64,000 bases of DNA from the NCBI GenBank assembly GCA_030432595.1, contig JAUIGU010000002.1, positions 62,001 through 126,000 of the forward strand. Direction: 5' to 3'. Of this stretch, positions 2,780 to 35,341 are shown one piece after another. The notes below the pieces were generated by a model. The model saw only the letters and a list, made by a program, of their open reading frames with translations, made no database searches and was not told where the DNA came from. Position numbers and translations under genes: made by a program. Position 1 is the stretch's first letter. Each line of letters starts with the position of its first letter. The stretch is from Phycisphaerae bacterium. GTDB taxonomy: Bacteria > Planctomycetota > Phycisphaerae > Phycisphaerales > Phycisphaeraceae.

Positions 2780-3347
2780 CGGGAGGCCTTTCGTATCCAG
2801 TTGGGAGTGTACGGGGCGGGGCGCGGGGATTCCACCGGACGCCGGCGGGCGCCTCGCCGCAGGTTATTGGTTCGGGGTGGTGCTGTACGCGCGAATTCGG
2901 TCGCACGTGGTTGTGTGCCGTGGCATGGTTGCCGTGGCCCGGTGGCCTTGGCTCTCGCATGGGGGGGGCCGGTTTGGTGTCGGTCCGCCGTGAACATCCG
3001 GGCCGACCGTGGGCTCAACCCCCGCCACCGACGGGGTATTCCACGCCGGCCTCGCCCGCCCTCGCAGCCGACCCCAACCGCCCGCCAACCCCAGAGTCAC
3101 GCCCACCCCGTGCCCCGCTCCACCGCCGCCCGTCTCCTGCCCCGCCCCCAACTCCGAACCCCACCCCCGACCCAAGCGCCCACCCCGGTTTTCACCCCCG
3201 AAACAATTGGGGTTTCCGCGATTTGGGGGTACACTTACCCGGCGGGAGGTCGGGTCGCGGCGGTGTCTGCGTCCCGACGGCGGGCCCGCCCCACCCCTCA
3301 ACCCGCCGATGGTCCGGTTTTTTGTCCCGTCGAGTGGCGGAGGAAGA
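2780..3347. other. Long C-rich intergenic region
   Basis: No gene is supported in these 568 bases. The part from about 3030 to 3200 is strongly cytosine-skewed on the plus strand and includes four C-runs at 3140-3168 that form a canonical G-quadruplex motif on the minus strand. A less GC-rich stretch at about 3205-3240 may hold the promoter of the protease gene. Confidence 0.5.
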
Positions 3348-4277
3348 ATGTTGTTCATGCCCGATCGAATCGTCCAAGCCACGGCGTTGGCCACGCTGGC
3401 CGCCGGCCTGTCCGTGCCCGCGTCGGCCCTCATCGTCGACGACCCCGGCAACGCCCGGCCCCTGCTCACCCCGCCCGCCGCCGCCATCGGCACCTGGGGC
3501 GCCAACGCCTCCGCCGTCGCCATCGGACCCAACCACATCCTCACCACCCGCCACCAGGACGGCTCCTCCGAGACCCCCACCCTCCGCCAGGTCAACTTCA
3601 ACGGCACCACCTACAACTCCGTCAGCCAGACCCTCTTCGACGTCTCCGGCAGCGACAACTTCGACGTCCGCCTCGTCGAAATCGAACAGACCAACGGCAG
3701 CCCCGCCAACCTCACCGACTTCCTGCCCGTCTACACCCTCGGCATCAGCGAGTCCCTCGTCGGCCAACGCGTCGTCATGGCTGCCCACGGCCTCACCGGC
3801 ATCAACGAAGACGGCGCCGGCTTCGACTGGCAGGCCTTCGGCGGCGCCAACCCCAACGCCAATTCCTACGGCGTCGCCTTCGGCGAAAACGTCATCGACG
3901 CCGAAGACACCCAGAACGACAACGGCTTCAACGGCGACCGCTGGCTCGGCGACTTCGACGCCCCCAGCGCCAACGACAACATGACCTACGAAGCCACCGT
4001 CGCCCCCGGTGACTCCGGCGGCGCCCTCATGATGTTCCGCTACGACCAGTGGTGGCTCGTCGGCCTGCCCAACGCCGTCGAAGAGGCCTCCGGCTCGCTC
4101 CCCGACGCGTTCTTCGGCCAGGAGTGGTTCGCCTCCGACGTCACCCGCCTCGCCTCCGACATCGAAACCGCCATCGGCGGCGGCTTCGCCTTCCCCGACC
4201 CCAAGCCCCTCCCCGAACCCGGCAGCGCCGCACTGCTCGCCGGTCTGGCCACGCTCGCCCTGCGTCGCCGCAAGTAA
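3348..4277 (+). CDS. Secreted trypsin-like serine protease with PEP-CTERM anchor
   Basis: About 309 residues. A signal peptide ends near VPASA. The catalytic triad is visible: His in ILTTRHQDG, Asp in NFDVRLVEI and Ser in APGDSGGALM. The C-terminus is a PEP-CTERM sorting tag: PLPEPGSAALLAGLATLALR with terminal Arg/Lys. The tag predicts export and exosortase processing at the outer surface. GGAGG at 3339-3343 supports ATG 3348, and ATG 3357 is an in-frame alternative with longer spacing. The reading frame stays open further upstream, but that stretch is C-rich noncoding DNA. A terminator follows at 4306. The substrate is unknown. Two other PEP-CTERM proteins lie in the window (46306 and 53798). 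Confidence 0.85.
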   Translation: MLFMPDRIVQATALATLAAGLSVPASALIVDDPGNARPLLTPPAAAIGTWGANASAVAIGPNHILTTRHQDGSSETPTLRQVNFNGTTYNSVSQTLFDVSGSDNFDVRLVEIEQTNGSPANLTDFLPVYTLGISESLVGQRVVMAAHGLTGINEDGAGFDWQAFGGANPNANSYGVAFGENVIDAEDTQNDNGFNGDRWLGDFDAPSANDNMTYEATVAPGDSGGALMMFRYDQWWLVGLPNAVEEASGSLPDAFFGQEWFASDVTRLASDIETAIGGGFAFPDPKPLPEPGSAALLAGLATLALRRRK

Positions 4278-13057: not shown

Positions 13058-13067
13058 GGCAGGAAGG

Positions 13068-13278
13068 AACCGCAGATGGACGCAGATGGACGCAGATTAT
13101 TCACACGTGTTCGACAGAACGCACCGTCTGCATGTTTAACCGCCAAGACGCCAAGATCGCCAAGTCCCGGCAAACAAGCGGTGTCCGGTGTCGATCTTCT
13201 TGGTGTCCTTTGCGTCATGGCGGTTCAATCAAAAGCTCTTCTGCTTCTATCTGCGTTCATCTGCGTCCATCTGTGGTT
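13068..13278. repeat. Nested phrase-like inverted repeat (GCAGATGGAC / GCCAAGACG families)
   Basis: Outer arms 13068-13097 and 13249-13278 match with two mismatches over 30 bases and are built of CGCAGATGGA words. Inner arms 13138-13164 and 13199-13225 are built of CCAAGACGCCAAG words. The right arms overlap the next gene: its ATG at 13217 lies in the inner arm, and its signal-peptide core is encoded by the outer arm. Confidence 0.85.
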
Positions 13279-15868
13279 TACTTCTTCTGCTTCTGCGGCA
13301 GAGAACGGCATCGTCTGGTGGGAGGGCGAGGACGCGGTGCGGACGAACGTGCCGGCGCGGTCGCCGTTCGGGCCGGGCACGGGCGGGAACTTCGACGTGC
13401 TCTCCGGCGGCGACTGGATCAGCGGGCAGGTGCGCCCCGGCGGCCGGCCATACGAGGCGCAGTACCTGATCGAAGCCCCGGCCGACGGGACGTACACGCT
13501 GTGGGCGCGGAAGTTCTGGAAGCACGGCCCGTTCGAGTGGCGCTTCGACGACCAGAAATGGACGCAGGTCGGGCGCGAGGTGACGCTGGCGGACAGCGCG
13601 ACGATCCGCACGCACCTGGTCGCGAACTGGGTGGCCGTGGGCGACGTGAAACTCACCGCCGGCCGGCACGCGTTTTGGTGGCGGATGACGGACCTGCAGC
13701 CGGGCAAGGACGAGGCGGTGGGCTTCGATTGTTTTGCGCTCGTGCCCAGCGACGCCGCGTTCACGCCGCGCGGCAAACTCAAACCGAATCAGCGCGACAC
13801 GCGCGCCGACGACGGCTGGTTCGCGTGGGACCCGCCGCGCGACGAATTCCCCGAAGACGCAGGCTTCGACCACCGCGATCTGAACGAGGAGTTCGCCGGC
13901 ATCCACGGGCGCGTCCGCAAAACCGACGACGGCAACGGGCTGCTCCTGGGCGACGGCACGCCCGTGCGCTTCTGGGGCGTCAACGTCAAGCCCGACTTCG
14001 GCGACGCGCCCGACGGCCTGCTGAACCACTGGGCGCGGCGCATGGCGAAGATCGGCGTCAACCTCGTCCGCATCCACGGCCCGCTGTGGACGAAACAACA
14101 CGACCAGTGGCGCGTCGACCCCCGGAAGCTGGAGAACGTTCACCGCCTCGTCGCGGCGCTCAAACAACAAGGGATCTACACCGAGATCAGTTGGTACTTC
14201 CCGATCTGGATCGACGCGCGGCACGCGGGCCTGCCCGGGTACCACGACGCGAACATCGAGCACCCGTTCGCGTCGCACATGTTCAACGACCGAGTACAGC
14301 GGTGGTACCTCGACACGCTGCGCGACATCGTCACGCCGGTGAACCCGCACACCGGGCTGTCGCTGGCCGACGACCCGGCGGTCGCGATGATCGAACTGGT
14401 GAACGAGGACAGCTTCTTCTTCTGGACGTTCAACCCCGACAACATGCCCGAGCCGATCTGGGACGAGCTGCAGGACATGTACGAGGACTCTCCGCACTAC
14501 GCCGGCGGCGAGCTGCGCGGCGTATGGAACCTGACGCGCGAGGGTCAAAAGAACGCCGGGCGACGCGAGTTGCGTCAGCTCAAGGCGCAGGCGGCGTTCC
14601 TGGCGAACCTCCAGCGCGGGTTCTACGAGAAAGCGATCGCGGCGCTGCGCGGGCACGGGTACGACGGCCTGACGGTGTGCTCGAACTGGCACACCGCCGA
14701 CCCGCCAATGCTCGATGCGCTGGAGCGGTGGACGTACACGGCCGGCGACGTGATCGACCACCACGGGTATTTCGAGAGCAAGCACACCGGCTCGGCGGCG
14801 GCGTGGGCGGTGCGCGCCGGCGACACGTTCGAGAGCCGGTCGGCGCTGCAGAACCTCGACGCGCTGCCGCTGCGCGTCAACCAGGTGCGCGGCCACCCGC
14901 AGATGATCTCGGAGGTGAACTGGCCGCTCCCCAACGAGCACCGCGCGGACATGGTCTGGCTGGGCGTCGCCGCGCTGGGCGCGCAGGGCGTCGATGCGGT
15001 GTGCTGGTTCCAGTGCACGTCGCTGACGGGCGTCGAAACCAACTGGGTGCAGAAGTTCACCATCGACGTGCCGAGCATCACCGGCCAGTTCCCCGCCGCG
15101 GCGCTGGCGTTCCGGCGCGGCGACGTGCCGGAGCAGGAGCCGGTCGTGGTCGAATCGATCAAGAGCAAGGACCTGAAAGCGCTGTCCGGCTCGGCGACGG
15201 CGAACCACGCGAGTATCGAGGCGTTCCGGGCGGGGGATGCGCAGCAGATCGAAGATTTTGATGGGGTGGACCCGCTGGCGTATTACGTGGGGCCGGTGGT
15301 GCGGGTGTTTGATGACCCATCGATCAAGTCGTGGCAAAGGAGCGCCGGTGGCGTGCTCGCAGGCGATGACGTCCATGTTCCGGGGGTGCTGCAGACCAGC
15401 CATCCGACGTCGTTGGCGTTGCACGGGCAGTCTCGGTTGAGCGTCCGCCTGGGGCCGGCACCGATCCGTGACTTTGACCTCTTGCCGTCGTCACACGAGA
15501 TCGCGCCGAGCAACGACGACGGGGCTGTGTCGATGATTTCGTTGGACGGGAAGCCGCTGCGACGATCCAACCGTGTGTTGTTCCAGGCGATCCGCACGGA
15601 GAAGCCCTACGGGTTCGTCGTCACCGACGGACAGATCAAGAGCATGGGCGGCGCACCGCTGAACGTGACGACGCCGAAGGCCGGGTTCGCGATTCTTTTC
15701 GAGGACGACCGTCCGGCCAGGGCGACCGTGCTCGATGAGAACGGCGACCGCACCACACGGCCGGTTCCGCTGATCGAGAAGAACGGCAGCGTCGGTTTTG
15801 ACTGGCCCGCGAACACGGTGAGCGTGCTGCTGGAACGGGACGCCGAGCCCATCGGCAACAAGGAGTAG
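13217..15868 (+). CDS. Secreted GH5-like glycoside hydrolase (clan GH-A)
   Basis: 883 residues. The signal peptide is MAVQSKALLLLSAFICVHLW, ending near SASAAE. An N-terminal beta domain of about 170 residues (carbohydrate-binding-like: YTLWARKFWKHGPF) precedes a TIM barrel with VRFWGVNVKPD, NLVRIHGPLW and the acid/base motif MIELVNEDSFFFW. The nucleophile motif is MISEVNWPLP. A C-terminal beta domain follows. NE and E at the barrel-strand ends fit clan GH-A retaining enzymes acting on beta-glycans. The precise family and substrate are uncertain. ATG 13217 is chosen because it opens a signal peptide, and the frame upstream runs through a dispersed repeat. Confidence 0.8.
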   Translation: MAVQSKALLLLSAFICVHLWFTSSASAAENGIVWWEGEDAVRTNVPARSPFGPGTGGNFDVLSGGDWISGQVRPGGRPYEAQYLIEAPADGTYTLWARKFWKHGPFEWRFDDQKWTQVGREVTLADSATIRTHLVANWVAVGDVKLTAGRHAFWWRMTDLQPGKDEAVGFDCFALVPSDAAFTPRGKLKPNQRDTRADDGWFAWDPPRDEFPEDAGFDHRDLNEEFAGIHGRVRKTDDGNGLLLGDGTPVRFWGVNVKPDFGDAPDGLLNHWARRMAKIGVNLVRIHGPLWTKQHDQWRVDPRKLENVHRLVAALKQQGIYTEISWYFPIWIDARHAGLPGYHDANIEHPFASHMFNDRVQRWYLDTLRDIVTPVNPHTGLSLADDPAVAMIELVNEDSFFFWTFNPDNMPEPIWDELQDMYEDSPHYAGGELRGVWNLTREGQKNAGRRELRQLKAQAAFLANLQRGFYEKAIAALRGHGYDGLTVCSNWHTADPPMLDALERWTYTAGDVIDHHGYFESKHTGSAAAWAVRAGDTFESRSALQNLDALPLRVNQVRGHPQMISEVNWPLPNEHRADMVWLGVAALGAQGVDAVCWFQCTSLTGVETNWVQKFTIDVPSITGQFPAAALAFRRGDVPEQEPVVVESIKSKDLKALSGSATANHASIEAFRAGDAQQIEDFDGVDPLAYYVGPVVRVFDDPSIKSWQRSAGGVLAGDDVHVPGVLQTSHPTSLALHGQSRLSVRLGPAPIRDFDLLPSSHEIAPSNDDGAVSMISLDGKPLRRSNRVLFQAIRTEKPYGFVVTDGQIKSMGGAPLNVTTPKAGFAILFEDDRPARATVLDENGDRTTRPVPLIEKNGSVGFDWPANTVSVLLERDAEPIGNKE

Positions 15869-33455: not shown

Positions 33456-33712
33456 AAACCACCGATGAACGCAGATGAACACGGATGATGTTCCGTCGTG
33501 CGATACTTCCCGAAACGACGTAAATTATGAAAGATTGATCGTCGAGTTTTTTCCGCTTGGTTCGGTCTCCGCCTGAGCACTCCCCAGGAACGCACGCCAT
33601 GACCCGCTTGAATGGTCCAACATTTTCCTCGGTTTTGAAGTCCTTTTCCGTGAGTTCCGTGTGTTCCGTGGCCCTGCTCGCATCGGCGTTCATCGGTGTG
33701 CATCCGTGGTTC
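33456..33712. repeat. Phrase-like inverted repeat (ATGAACGCAGATGAAC family)
   Basis: The left arm 33456-33487 and right arm 33681-33712 are complementary with mismatches and are built of CGATGAACGC/GTTCATCGG words. An additional word run (CCGTGAGTTCCGTGTGTTCC) at about 33648-33670 adjoins the right arm. The right half overlaps the signal peptide of the next gene. Confidence 0.75.
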
Positions 33713-35341
33713 CAAACGCCCGCCGCCGCCCAGGACAACGCGCTCGACGTGGAGGCCGCCATGACCGAGACCGCCGCCGACATCCCGGAAGTCCCGCGTG
33801 AGTTCCGCGCCGCGTGGATCGCCACGGTCGCCAACATCGACTGGCCCACCGAGCCCGGGCTATCCACCGCCGACCAGCAAAAGGAGATGCTCGCGCTGCT
33901 GGACCTCTGCGACGAGCTCAACCTCAACGCCATCGTCTTCCAGGTCCGCCCGCACGCCGACGCGATGTACGACTCGAAGATCGAGCCGTGGTCCTACTAC
34001 CTCACCGGGGAGCAGGGCCAGGCCCCCGACCCGTACTACGACCCGCTCAAGTTCACCGTCGATGAGGCCCACCGGCGCGGCATCGAGGTCCACGTCTGGT
34101 TCAACCCGTACCGGGCGATGCACCCCGACAACCTGTCCGGCAACGACACCCTTGCCGACAACCACGTCGCCAACACCATGCCCGACGCCGTCAAGAAGCT
34201 CGGCGAAAAGCAGAACATGTGGTGGATGGACCCCGGCGACCGCCGCGTCCAGCAGCAGTCGCTTGACGTCATCGCCGACGTCGTCGACCGCTACGACGTG
34301 GACGGCATCCACTTCGACGACTACTTCTACCCTTACCCGTCCTACAACGACGGCAACGACTTCCCCGACGACGCCTCGTACAAGGCGTACCAGGACGCCG
34401 GCGGCCGGCTGAACCGCGGGGACTGGCGGCGCAAGAGCGTCAACGACTTCGTCGAAGAGCTCCACAGCGTCATCAAAGCCAGGAAGCCGCACGTCAAGTT
34501 CGGCATCAGCCCGTTCGGCATCTACCGGCCCGGGCACCCCGACTACATCAAGGGCTTCGACCAGTACGAAGAGCTCTACGCCGACGCCCACTTCTGGCTC
34601 GAACGTGGCTGGGTCGACTACATGACCCCGCAGCTCTACTGGGAGATCCGCAACCCCGACCAGAGCTTTGTGGGCCTGCTGAAGTGGTGGAACGACCACA
34701 ACCCCGAGGGTCGGCACATCTGGCCGGGCCTGTACACGTCCCGGCTCAACAGCGAGAACCCGACCTTCGACGACGACGAGATCCCGATGCAGATCAAGTG
34801 GACGCGCGTGCTCACGCAGCCGTCGTCAGGGCACGTGCACTTCTCGATCAAGGCGCTGCAGAAGGACAGCCGGGAGGTCGCGACAAAACTCAAGGCCGGG
34901 TACTACGGCGACGACGCGCTCGTGCCCGCCTCGCCGTGGATGAGCGAAGGGCAGCCGGCCGCGCCGACGTTCACCGCGCAGCGCGAGGACGACACCGTGA
35001 CCGTGACGCTCGAGGAGGCGCCGCCCGGGCTGGCGTGGGTCGTGCAGGTCGGCGTCGAGGGCCGGTGGACGCACACGGTGGTGCCGGGGACCGAAACCAC
35101 GACGACGGTCACGCTGCCCGCGCCGCAGGCCTTGGAGGCGGGGCCCGAGGCGACGAACCGCGTGCCCCGTGGGTTCAACGAAGACGAGCCGTCTGACGAT
35201 CAGGCGGTCGAGCCTGCCGAGCCGGCCAACCCCGACGCGCTCGACATCACCGTCGCCGTCTTCACCGTCGACCGCGCGGGCGTGGCCAGCGAGAAAACGG
35301 TCGAGACGATCACGAGCCAGTGGGAACGCACGCCGCGGTAA
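33599..35341 (+). CDS. Secreted GHL10-type glycosidase (DUF187/YngK-like)
   Basis: 580 residues. The signal peptide (MTRLNGPTFSSVLKSFSVSS, then VALLASAFIGVHPW) ends near AAAQ. The barrel motifs are EFRAAWIATVANIDWP, LNAIVFQVRPHADAMYDSKI, GIEVHVWFNPYRA, DGIHFDDYFYPYPS and FGISPFGIYRPG, all typical of the glycosyl hydrolase-like 10 group. DYFYPYP and PQLYWEIR place the catalytic Asp/Glu. The C-terminal 170 residues include a beta-sandwich-like region. Bacterial members act on polymers of the wall or surface. The start ATG 33599 is chosen for the signal peptide. The upstream repeat encodes part of that signal. Confidence 0.85.
   Translation: MTRLNGPTFSSVLKSFSVSSVCSVALLASAFIGVHPWFQTPAAAQDNALDVEAAMTETAADIPEVPREFRAAWIATVANIDWPTEPGLSTADQQKEMLALLDLCDELNLNAIVFQVRPHADAMYDSKIEPWSYYLTGEQGQAPDPYYDPLKFTVDEAHRRGIEVHVWFNPYRAMHPDNLSGNDTLADNHVANTMPDAVKKLGEKQNMWWMDPGDRRVQQQSLDVIADVVDRYDVDGIHFDDYFYPYPSYNDGNDFPDDASYKAYQDAGGRLNRGDWRRKSVNDFVEELHSVIKARKPHVKFGISPFGIYRPGHPDYIKGFDQYEELYADAHFWLERGWVDYMTPQLYWEIRNPDQSFVGLLKWWNDHNPEGRHIWPGLYTSRLNSENPTFDDDEIPMQIKWTRVLTQPSSGHVHFSIKALQKDSREVATKLKAGYYGDDALVPASPWMSEGQPAAPTFTAQREDDTVTVTLEEAPPGLAWVVQVGVEGRWTHTVVPGTETTTTVTLPAPQALEAGPEATNRVPRGFNEDEPSDDQAVEPAEPANPDALDITVAVFTVDRAGVASEKTVETITSQWERTPR

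Follow-up and report, generated by a model that had tools for sequence, protein, structure and literature searches.

Arms of dispersed inverted repeats appear to form the signal cores of two hydrolase genes in a Phycisphaerae bacterium and resemble the inverted repeats around GxxExxY genes

How do two genes without detectable sequence similarity come to begin with almost the same putative export signal? The question is raised by a 64,000-nucleotide stretch of a Phycisphaerae bacterium genome (contig JAUIGU010000002.1, positions 62,001 to 126,000; hereafter the window), in which a GH5-like gene (13217..15868, plus strand) and a gene for a GHL10 (PF02638) protein (33599..35341, plus strand) each encode, close to the N-terminus, a hydrophobic segment that coincides with the arm of a dispersed inverted repeat. 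The answer that we consider probable is that these are arms of GxxExxY-type elements, spread by the GxxExxY protein and co-opted as the signal cores of two hydrolases. It builds on the identity and reading frame of the arms, their presence in a sister species, the bracketing of GxxExxY genes by such arms, the association of arm type with protein type, and the predicted nuclease fold of the GxxExxY protein.

At the first locus (13066-13278), a B-type inverted repeat of CTTGGCG units is nested within an A-type one of ATCTGCG units. The left outer A arm (13066..13098, minus strand, with ATCYGYG units read outward on that strand) sits after an upstream GTPase gene, a placement also found at the sister locus (L056), and holds an ATG at 13076. 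It is followed by the left B arm (13138..13164, minus strand, CTTGGCG units), the right B arm (13199..13228, plus strand) and the right outer A arm (13249..13278, plus strand). The original prediction that the GH5-like gene takes its start codon from one arm and its signal core from another was borne out by the raw sequence. The third unit of the right B arm, CATGGCGG in place of the usual CTTGGCGG, gives the ATG at 13217, and the right A arm encodes in frame SAFICVHLWF, the hydrophobic core of the signal MAVQSKALLLLSAFICVHLWFTSSASA, after which the probably secreted product of the coding model continues with AENG. The frame is also open from the left-arm ATG in both the window gene and its sister orthologue (MDADGRR and MNADERR, lying 240 and 117 nucleotides, respectively, from the conserved WWE segment), and 13217 is consequently the likelier, not the sole, start.

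The second locus (33457-33714) consists of an A-type pair, with a left arm (33457..33486, minus strand) 5´ of the GHL10 gene and a right arm (33681..33714, plus strand), around a spacer that holds a C-like arm (33646..33671, plus strand, TTCCGTG units). The C-like arm is read in frame as SVSSVCSV inside the GHL10 signal, and SAFIGVHPWF comes from the right A arm, in the frame used by its GH5-like counterpart, as had been proposed; the signal, ...CSVALLASAFIGVHPWFQTPAAAQ, is followed by DNALDV. In both genes the signal c-region comes directly after the arm (TSSASA in GH5-like, TPAAAQ in GHL10; cleavage sites placed by eye). No Rfam family matched at the gathering threshold between 12900 and 34000, and the window contains no tRNA genes.

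The two proteins had been called non-homologous, which holds at the level of sequence, where BLASTP gives no support for homologous mature proteins (best E 1.1); at the level of fold both are probably TIM-barrel hydrolases. The GHL10 assignment is firm (Pfam E 3.5e-68; 230.4 bits against a cut-off of 27.9). The label GH5-like refers to the fold only: the modelled 500 residues (mean predicted local distance difference test score, pLDDT, 56.5) resemble mostly GH5-type barrels at a TMq of about 0.3, whereas by sequence the protein (P0001) is matched neither by Pfam (E 0.001) nor by NCBIfam (E 0.01), nor by any PDB entry at the limit applied, and it does not fit the profile of glycoside hydrolase family 5.

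The arrangement recurs in the sister species, the sole other genome available for the genus. Its orthologues are 64% (GH5-like) and 73% (GHL10) identical to the window proteins, the upstream neighbours of both loci match as well (82% and 74%), and the signals again include an in-frame repeat arm, ...PASVCVYLWLQTCPAVAQ in the GH5-like and ...SAFICVNLRINTLAQ in the GHL10 protein. The DNA between the arms differs between the species at both loci and is unalignable by eye. By-eye inspection of the N-termini of orthologues from other genera (10 GH5-like and 18 GHL10) revealed no arm; these proteins have ordinary-looking signals or a lipobox, the latter in many of the 18 GHL10 sequences. The two loci thus look like genuine co-option of repeat arms into signal cores, present in two species and presumably serving export. 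From the sequence comparison we infer that the co-option is older than the species split and that arm and frame have been retained since.

Sharing of element sites between the two genomes can be compared more broadly. Six of 27 sites are common to the genome of the window (G000, 4.39 Mb) and the sister (G001), namely L004, L013, L031, L042, L055 and L085. This count derives from 30 loci, after removal of L022, which duplicates L042, and of L026 and L040, whose matches fall within coding sequence, with paralogue-like matches for L001 and L032 not counted and with L033/L283 excluded as lying inside coding sequence, not in an orthologous gap. Both signal sites are shared, versus 4/25 other sites (p = 15/351 = 0.043, calculated by hand; 0.06 if L033/L283 is counted), which is weak evidence for an excess. 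At the shared site L031 (G000:C38:142000-145500, 1509-1937; L290 in the sister, G001:C136, 1205-1527), A arms are kept in both species around spacers with different small open reading frames (ORFs), one of FVRFVV type and the other for a possible small membrane protein, neither with an NCBIfam match, as if cassettes had been exchanged between the arms.

What, then, are these repeats? They occur as outward-facing inverted pairs of arms, each made of about three tandem units of some 7 bp, and CATCTGCGTTCATCTGCGG, CTTGGCGTCTTGGCGGTT and CTCTGTGTCTCTGTGG are types that recur in the genomes studied. In the genome of the window they are commoner than chance: the A pattern (at most one mismatch) has 53 matches, with some arms counted twice owing to overlapping units, the B pattern (at most two mismatches) has 47, and both reversed patterns have 0. 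Across eleven genomes, 109 inverted arm pairs were listed; they have terminal inverted repeats, the classical mark of a miniature inverted-repeat transposable element (MITE), and enclose spacers of 8 to 806 bp that contain short AT-rich loops, other nested repeats and occasionally small ORFs. The GTAG tag of REPIN/RAYT is absent, 64 A elements ending instead in GG followed by CTAAA-like sequence. Text searches for the arm strings in the open-licence PMC literature returned no paper. Among individual elements, three closely similar A elements stand in tandem at L259 (G126:C32:29500-40500, 3261-3945), each with a 153-bp spacer, which suggests local amplification, and A elements of G003 (e.g. L146, L151, L157 and L158) repeatedly enclose hairpins of another family, CCCGCGGAAGCTCCG...CGGAGCATCCGCGGG.

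A candidate for the origin of the repeats lies between the arms themselves. In two relatives an ORF of about 120 residues between A-type arms belongs to the GxxExxY family TIGR04256 (E 6.1e-43 and 4.1e-40; 145.9 and 136.8 bits against a cut-off of 35) and matches no other NCBIfam model. PF13366 scores above its cut-off in 63/101 genomes, including seven places in the genome of the window, and was not found in the sister genome. Around the GxxExxY gene, inverted arms exceeded the control maximum of 15.0 at 26 of 29 loci (the best locus per genome, with 300 control draws from those same loci; L303 was left out for its short flanks) and at 18/20 loci in a second set of relatives, partly from the same genomes. 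The best 80 named loci span many bacterial phyla and methanogenic archaea; they are the top-ranking matches found with an alignment headed by an A-type protein, not a random sample. Of them, 79 have usable flanks (those of L414 are too short), and 61 of these score 15 or more, compared with 2/158 reversed-flank controls. When the same geometry was shifted by 1,100 bases, 0/120 positions qualified, against 50/60 at the gene itself (60 of the 80 named loci). Gene-less copies in G003 have the same inner edge, TAAGAC..GTCTTA, as the gene-holding copy, and we read most of the repeats as gene-less copies of GxxExxY elements that would once have been mobile. At one locus, L343 (G003:C11:28900-30673), the arms around the GxxExxY gene are reversed in orientation, with CACGGAG outward, not CTCCGTG. 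The strong association, seen at sequence level, of the GxxExxY family with its own inverted repeats is apparently undescribed in the open-licence PMC literature; in the portions of text available there, the name occurs in passing, and no paper was found on GxxExxY/PF13366 function, flanking repeats or a link between nuclease and repeat.

The GxxExxY protein is a predicted nuclease on the grounds of modelled fold and residues. Its AlphaFold2 model (pLDDT 95.9) matches PD-(D/E)XK folds, the closest being Cas4-like SSO0001 (Z 9.8, root-mean-square deviation 3.2, 96 aligned residues), with Hjc (Z 7.6) and lambda-type exonucleases also found; five chains reach Z 8. D62, E72 and K74 are invariant in 18/18 sequences, and the model would combine the restriction-endonuclease-like fold with the D ... 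E-x-K residues of the PD-(D/E)XK superfamily. The bracketed ORFs are TIGR04256 members, and the modelled member of the family has this predicted fold, not that of the HUH tyrosine transposase of REPIN/RAYT. PADLOC returned only a weak Cas4/Cas4b resemblance, and the PDB searched by sequence gave a single weak match (E 0.34). Relatives of one GxxExxY query at E 1e-5 are present in 8/72,556 plasmid records, a rarity more in line with a RAYT-like existence on the chromosome than with a classical transposon.

Arm type follows protein type. On a tree of 51 GxxExxY proteins carrying six arm classes, three of the labels having been set by hand before the test (L220 and L338 as A, L321 as D), arm class changes 12 times against a shuffled mean of 21.7, and 0/200 shuffles were as low. 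Class by class, with 500 shuffles each, none was as low as the 3 changes of A or the 7 of C, and three were as low as the 2 of B. The A rows form two groups that match two arm subtypes, and all four B rows lie inside one five-row group of modest support (81/81). Part of this association comes from the common descent of the loci. Across genomes of the family, A arms occur in 8/11 with an A-i-type GxxExxY protein (55% or more identity to the L178 protein) and in 10/40 without one (p 0.0056).

If arms can become signals, how often do they? The original prediction went further than the two loci and took repeats to be a general seed of export signals, which is not supported. Using a codon model trained on the loci collected, with the relation of arm to start read by eye, we surveyed 202 arm instances in seven genomes. 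Same-strand coding sequence follows 76 of them, its start codon mostly just beyond the arm, and just the loci described here have an arm as signal core. The cases in which an arm lies within a signal are the two window genes, the two sister orthologues (one seen in two loci) and L038 (G000:C69:160700-164100, minus strand, about 1689), where an A arm in another frame gives only the n-region of a possible third signal, MLNSLPNIGVHPRSSAAACLLLLLPFCVQAAA, the hydrophobic core of which is outside the arm. A 30-residue signal query against 251 order-level genomes returned, among the matches listed, several others that equal the E-value of the GHL10 locus, and 20 regions viewed around longer open frames and other matches from that query revealed no arm-encoded signal. 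From the survey and the query, arms adjoin starts often and turn into signals rarely. Of 39 B-type arms examined, 13 are followed by coding sequence, and by eye the GH5-like gene alone uses one in a signal. A further protein (L437, G000:C22:58392 region, minus strand, 1518; TrkA-like by our own reading) seemingly has as its start codon a TTG that belongs to a B arm, and element-encoded N-termini may therefore extend beyond secreted proteins.

The coding properties of the arms depend on the strand. In eight chosen representative arms, 20/24 outward frames have a positive mean hydropathy and 4/24 contain a stop, whereas 24/24 inward frames have a negative mean hydropathy. Examples of the outward peptides are LSAFICVHLWF, LGVLGVLAVQ and LCVSVPLWF. 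When a gene picks up a start codon from within an element, it is the outward strand that is read, and since this strand mostly codes for hydrophobic peptides, elements could give adjacent genes a ready-made export signal.

The course of events that we favour may be outlined as follows. The arms would be the outward-facing ends of small inverted-repeat elements like those around GxxExxY genes. Their PD-(D/E)XK-fold product most likely recognises the arm of its own element, in which about three 7-bp units follow one another at a distance of roughly a helical turn, and would spread arm-bounded DNA, by presumed cleavage and without target duplication. Most copies would have lost the gene, leaving two arms and a spacer, often next to gene starts and with outward arms that mostly code for hydrophobic peptides with few stops. 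In the presumed genus ancestor, two such elements may have come to lie at the 5´ ends of genes for secreted hydrolases, bordering on the signal c-region. Start codons inside the element would then have been recruited, the right arm becoming the hydrophobic core of a signal for putative export, and selection may have kept arm and frame while the interior turned over.

Several observations weigh against this account. Two loci with arm-coded signal cores are a small number. No empty site that would point to mobility was found, and target-site duplication is absent (the longest outer-flank direct repeat averages 4.13 in 64 elements, against 4.35 in mispaired controls). Eighteen of the 79 named loci score under 15, and D arms show no clear clustering on the tree (3 changes, with 53/500 shuffles as low). 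In the comparison of genomes with and without an A-i-type protein, the 55% identity line was drawn after viewing the list, and A arms were counted with one pattern variant. All seven PF13366 copies in the genome of the window were examined and none has A-i arms, and this genome, like G007, G015 and G026, is rich in A arms without an A-i-type protein; repeats in such genomes may be relics or may have moved otherwise. The sister GH5-like signal is less hydrophobic (12-residue maximum 1.68, n-region net charge 0) than those of the window GH5-like (2.57, charge 1), window GHL10 (2.47, charge 2) and sister GHL10 proteins (2.38, charge 2; cleavage motif judged by eye). Finally, in GHL10 of both species a conserved in-frame ATG downstream of the arm (EAAM / EASM) makes a shorter product conceivable.

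This last point would suit an interpretation of the arms as untranslated leader, with the true starts downstream and the signal-like reading accidental, as would the position of arms at other genes, which by eye is mostly just upstream of the start codon. We regard it as quite unlikely, however, because the GH5-like gene has in neither species an in-frame ATG, GTG or TTG in the interval from the arm to WWEGE/WWEAE, a conserved segment, and QDNALDV, upstream of the alternative GHL10 ATG, is coded by 20 identical bases in both species. AxA-like c-regions right after both window arms, retention of frame at both loci in two species, and the export signals that orthologues from other genera seem by eye to have, also speak for translation. 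It is harder to dismiss the idea that the arms at GxxExxY genes serve a resident gene as regulatory or terminator hairpins, and that some unrelated transposase, e.g. a RAYT, scattered the dispersed arms; the lack of target-site duplication, the few plasmid records with relatives of the one query, and the orphan arms in genomes without the cognate protein type are all in keeping with it. This, too, we consider rather unlikely, given that in many phyla the gene has an arm on either side, that arm type tracks protein phylogeny, and that the gene-less G003 copies have their inner edge in common with the gene copy. That the two genes inherited one signal, or exchanged N-termini, is hardly credible: their encoded cores are alike and both products are probably TIM-barrel hydrolases, but BLASTP finds no similarity between them, n-region and c-region differ outside the arms, similar arms are found at many unrelated sites, and orthologues from other genera have unrelated signals.

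Parts of this picture have precedents. At locus YPO1552 of Yersinia, a MITE of the YPAL/RU-2 type codes for a hydrophobic stretch that contributes to a predicted signal peptide, and two species have the gene in conserved form (Delihas, 2007; PMC2229807). As far as the available text of that paper goes, the likeness lies in a small repeat coding for the hydrophobic part of a predicted signal and in conservation across two species, and the signal described here is a further case of a known kind. It differs in the element family, in involving two enzyme genes with a common arm and frame, and in the persistence of the arms while the interiors differ. Rickettsia palindromic elements, which according to the same text lie within the reading frames of many proteins, likewise are dispersed palindromes in frame inside protein genes; here, in contrast, the arm gives a predicted N-terminal export signal, and its type goes with a nuclease-like family. 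For the element itself, the RAYT/REPtron and TIRtron systems (PMC3733652) come closest; they have in common with it dispersed inverted repeats that also flank one gene, several repeat families and many gene-less copies. Unlike REPIN/RAYT, the gene bracketed here is predicted to have a PD-(D/E)XK fold and not that of a HUH tyrosine transposase, and its arms are tandem units of about 7 bp and not GTAG-tagged hairpins.

We lean slightly towards a broader proposal, in which GxxExxY proteins are the mobilising nucleases of widespread, undescribed tiny elements with triple arms of about 7-bp units, a non-HUH counterpart of REPIN/RAYT. Several abundant families of dispersed repeats, present in Planctomycetota, Verrucomicrobiota, Acidobacteriota, Bacteroidota, Chloroflexota, Cyanobacteria, Proteobacteria and some archaea, would derive from these elements, which could also hand export signals to neighbouring genes. 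Tying the repeats to one uncharacterised nuclease-like family gives them an origin that can be tested and possibly a code of recognition that pairs protein clade with arm unit. The two signals are a conserved case in which repetitive DNA seems to have been turned into a functional part of a protein, and the ease with which export signals arise would be accounted for by the bias of one strand towards hydrophobic peptides.

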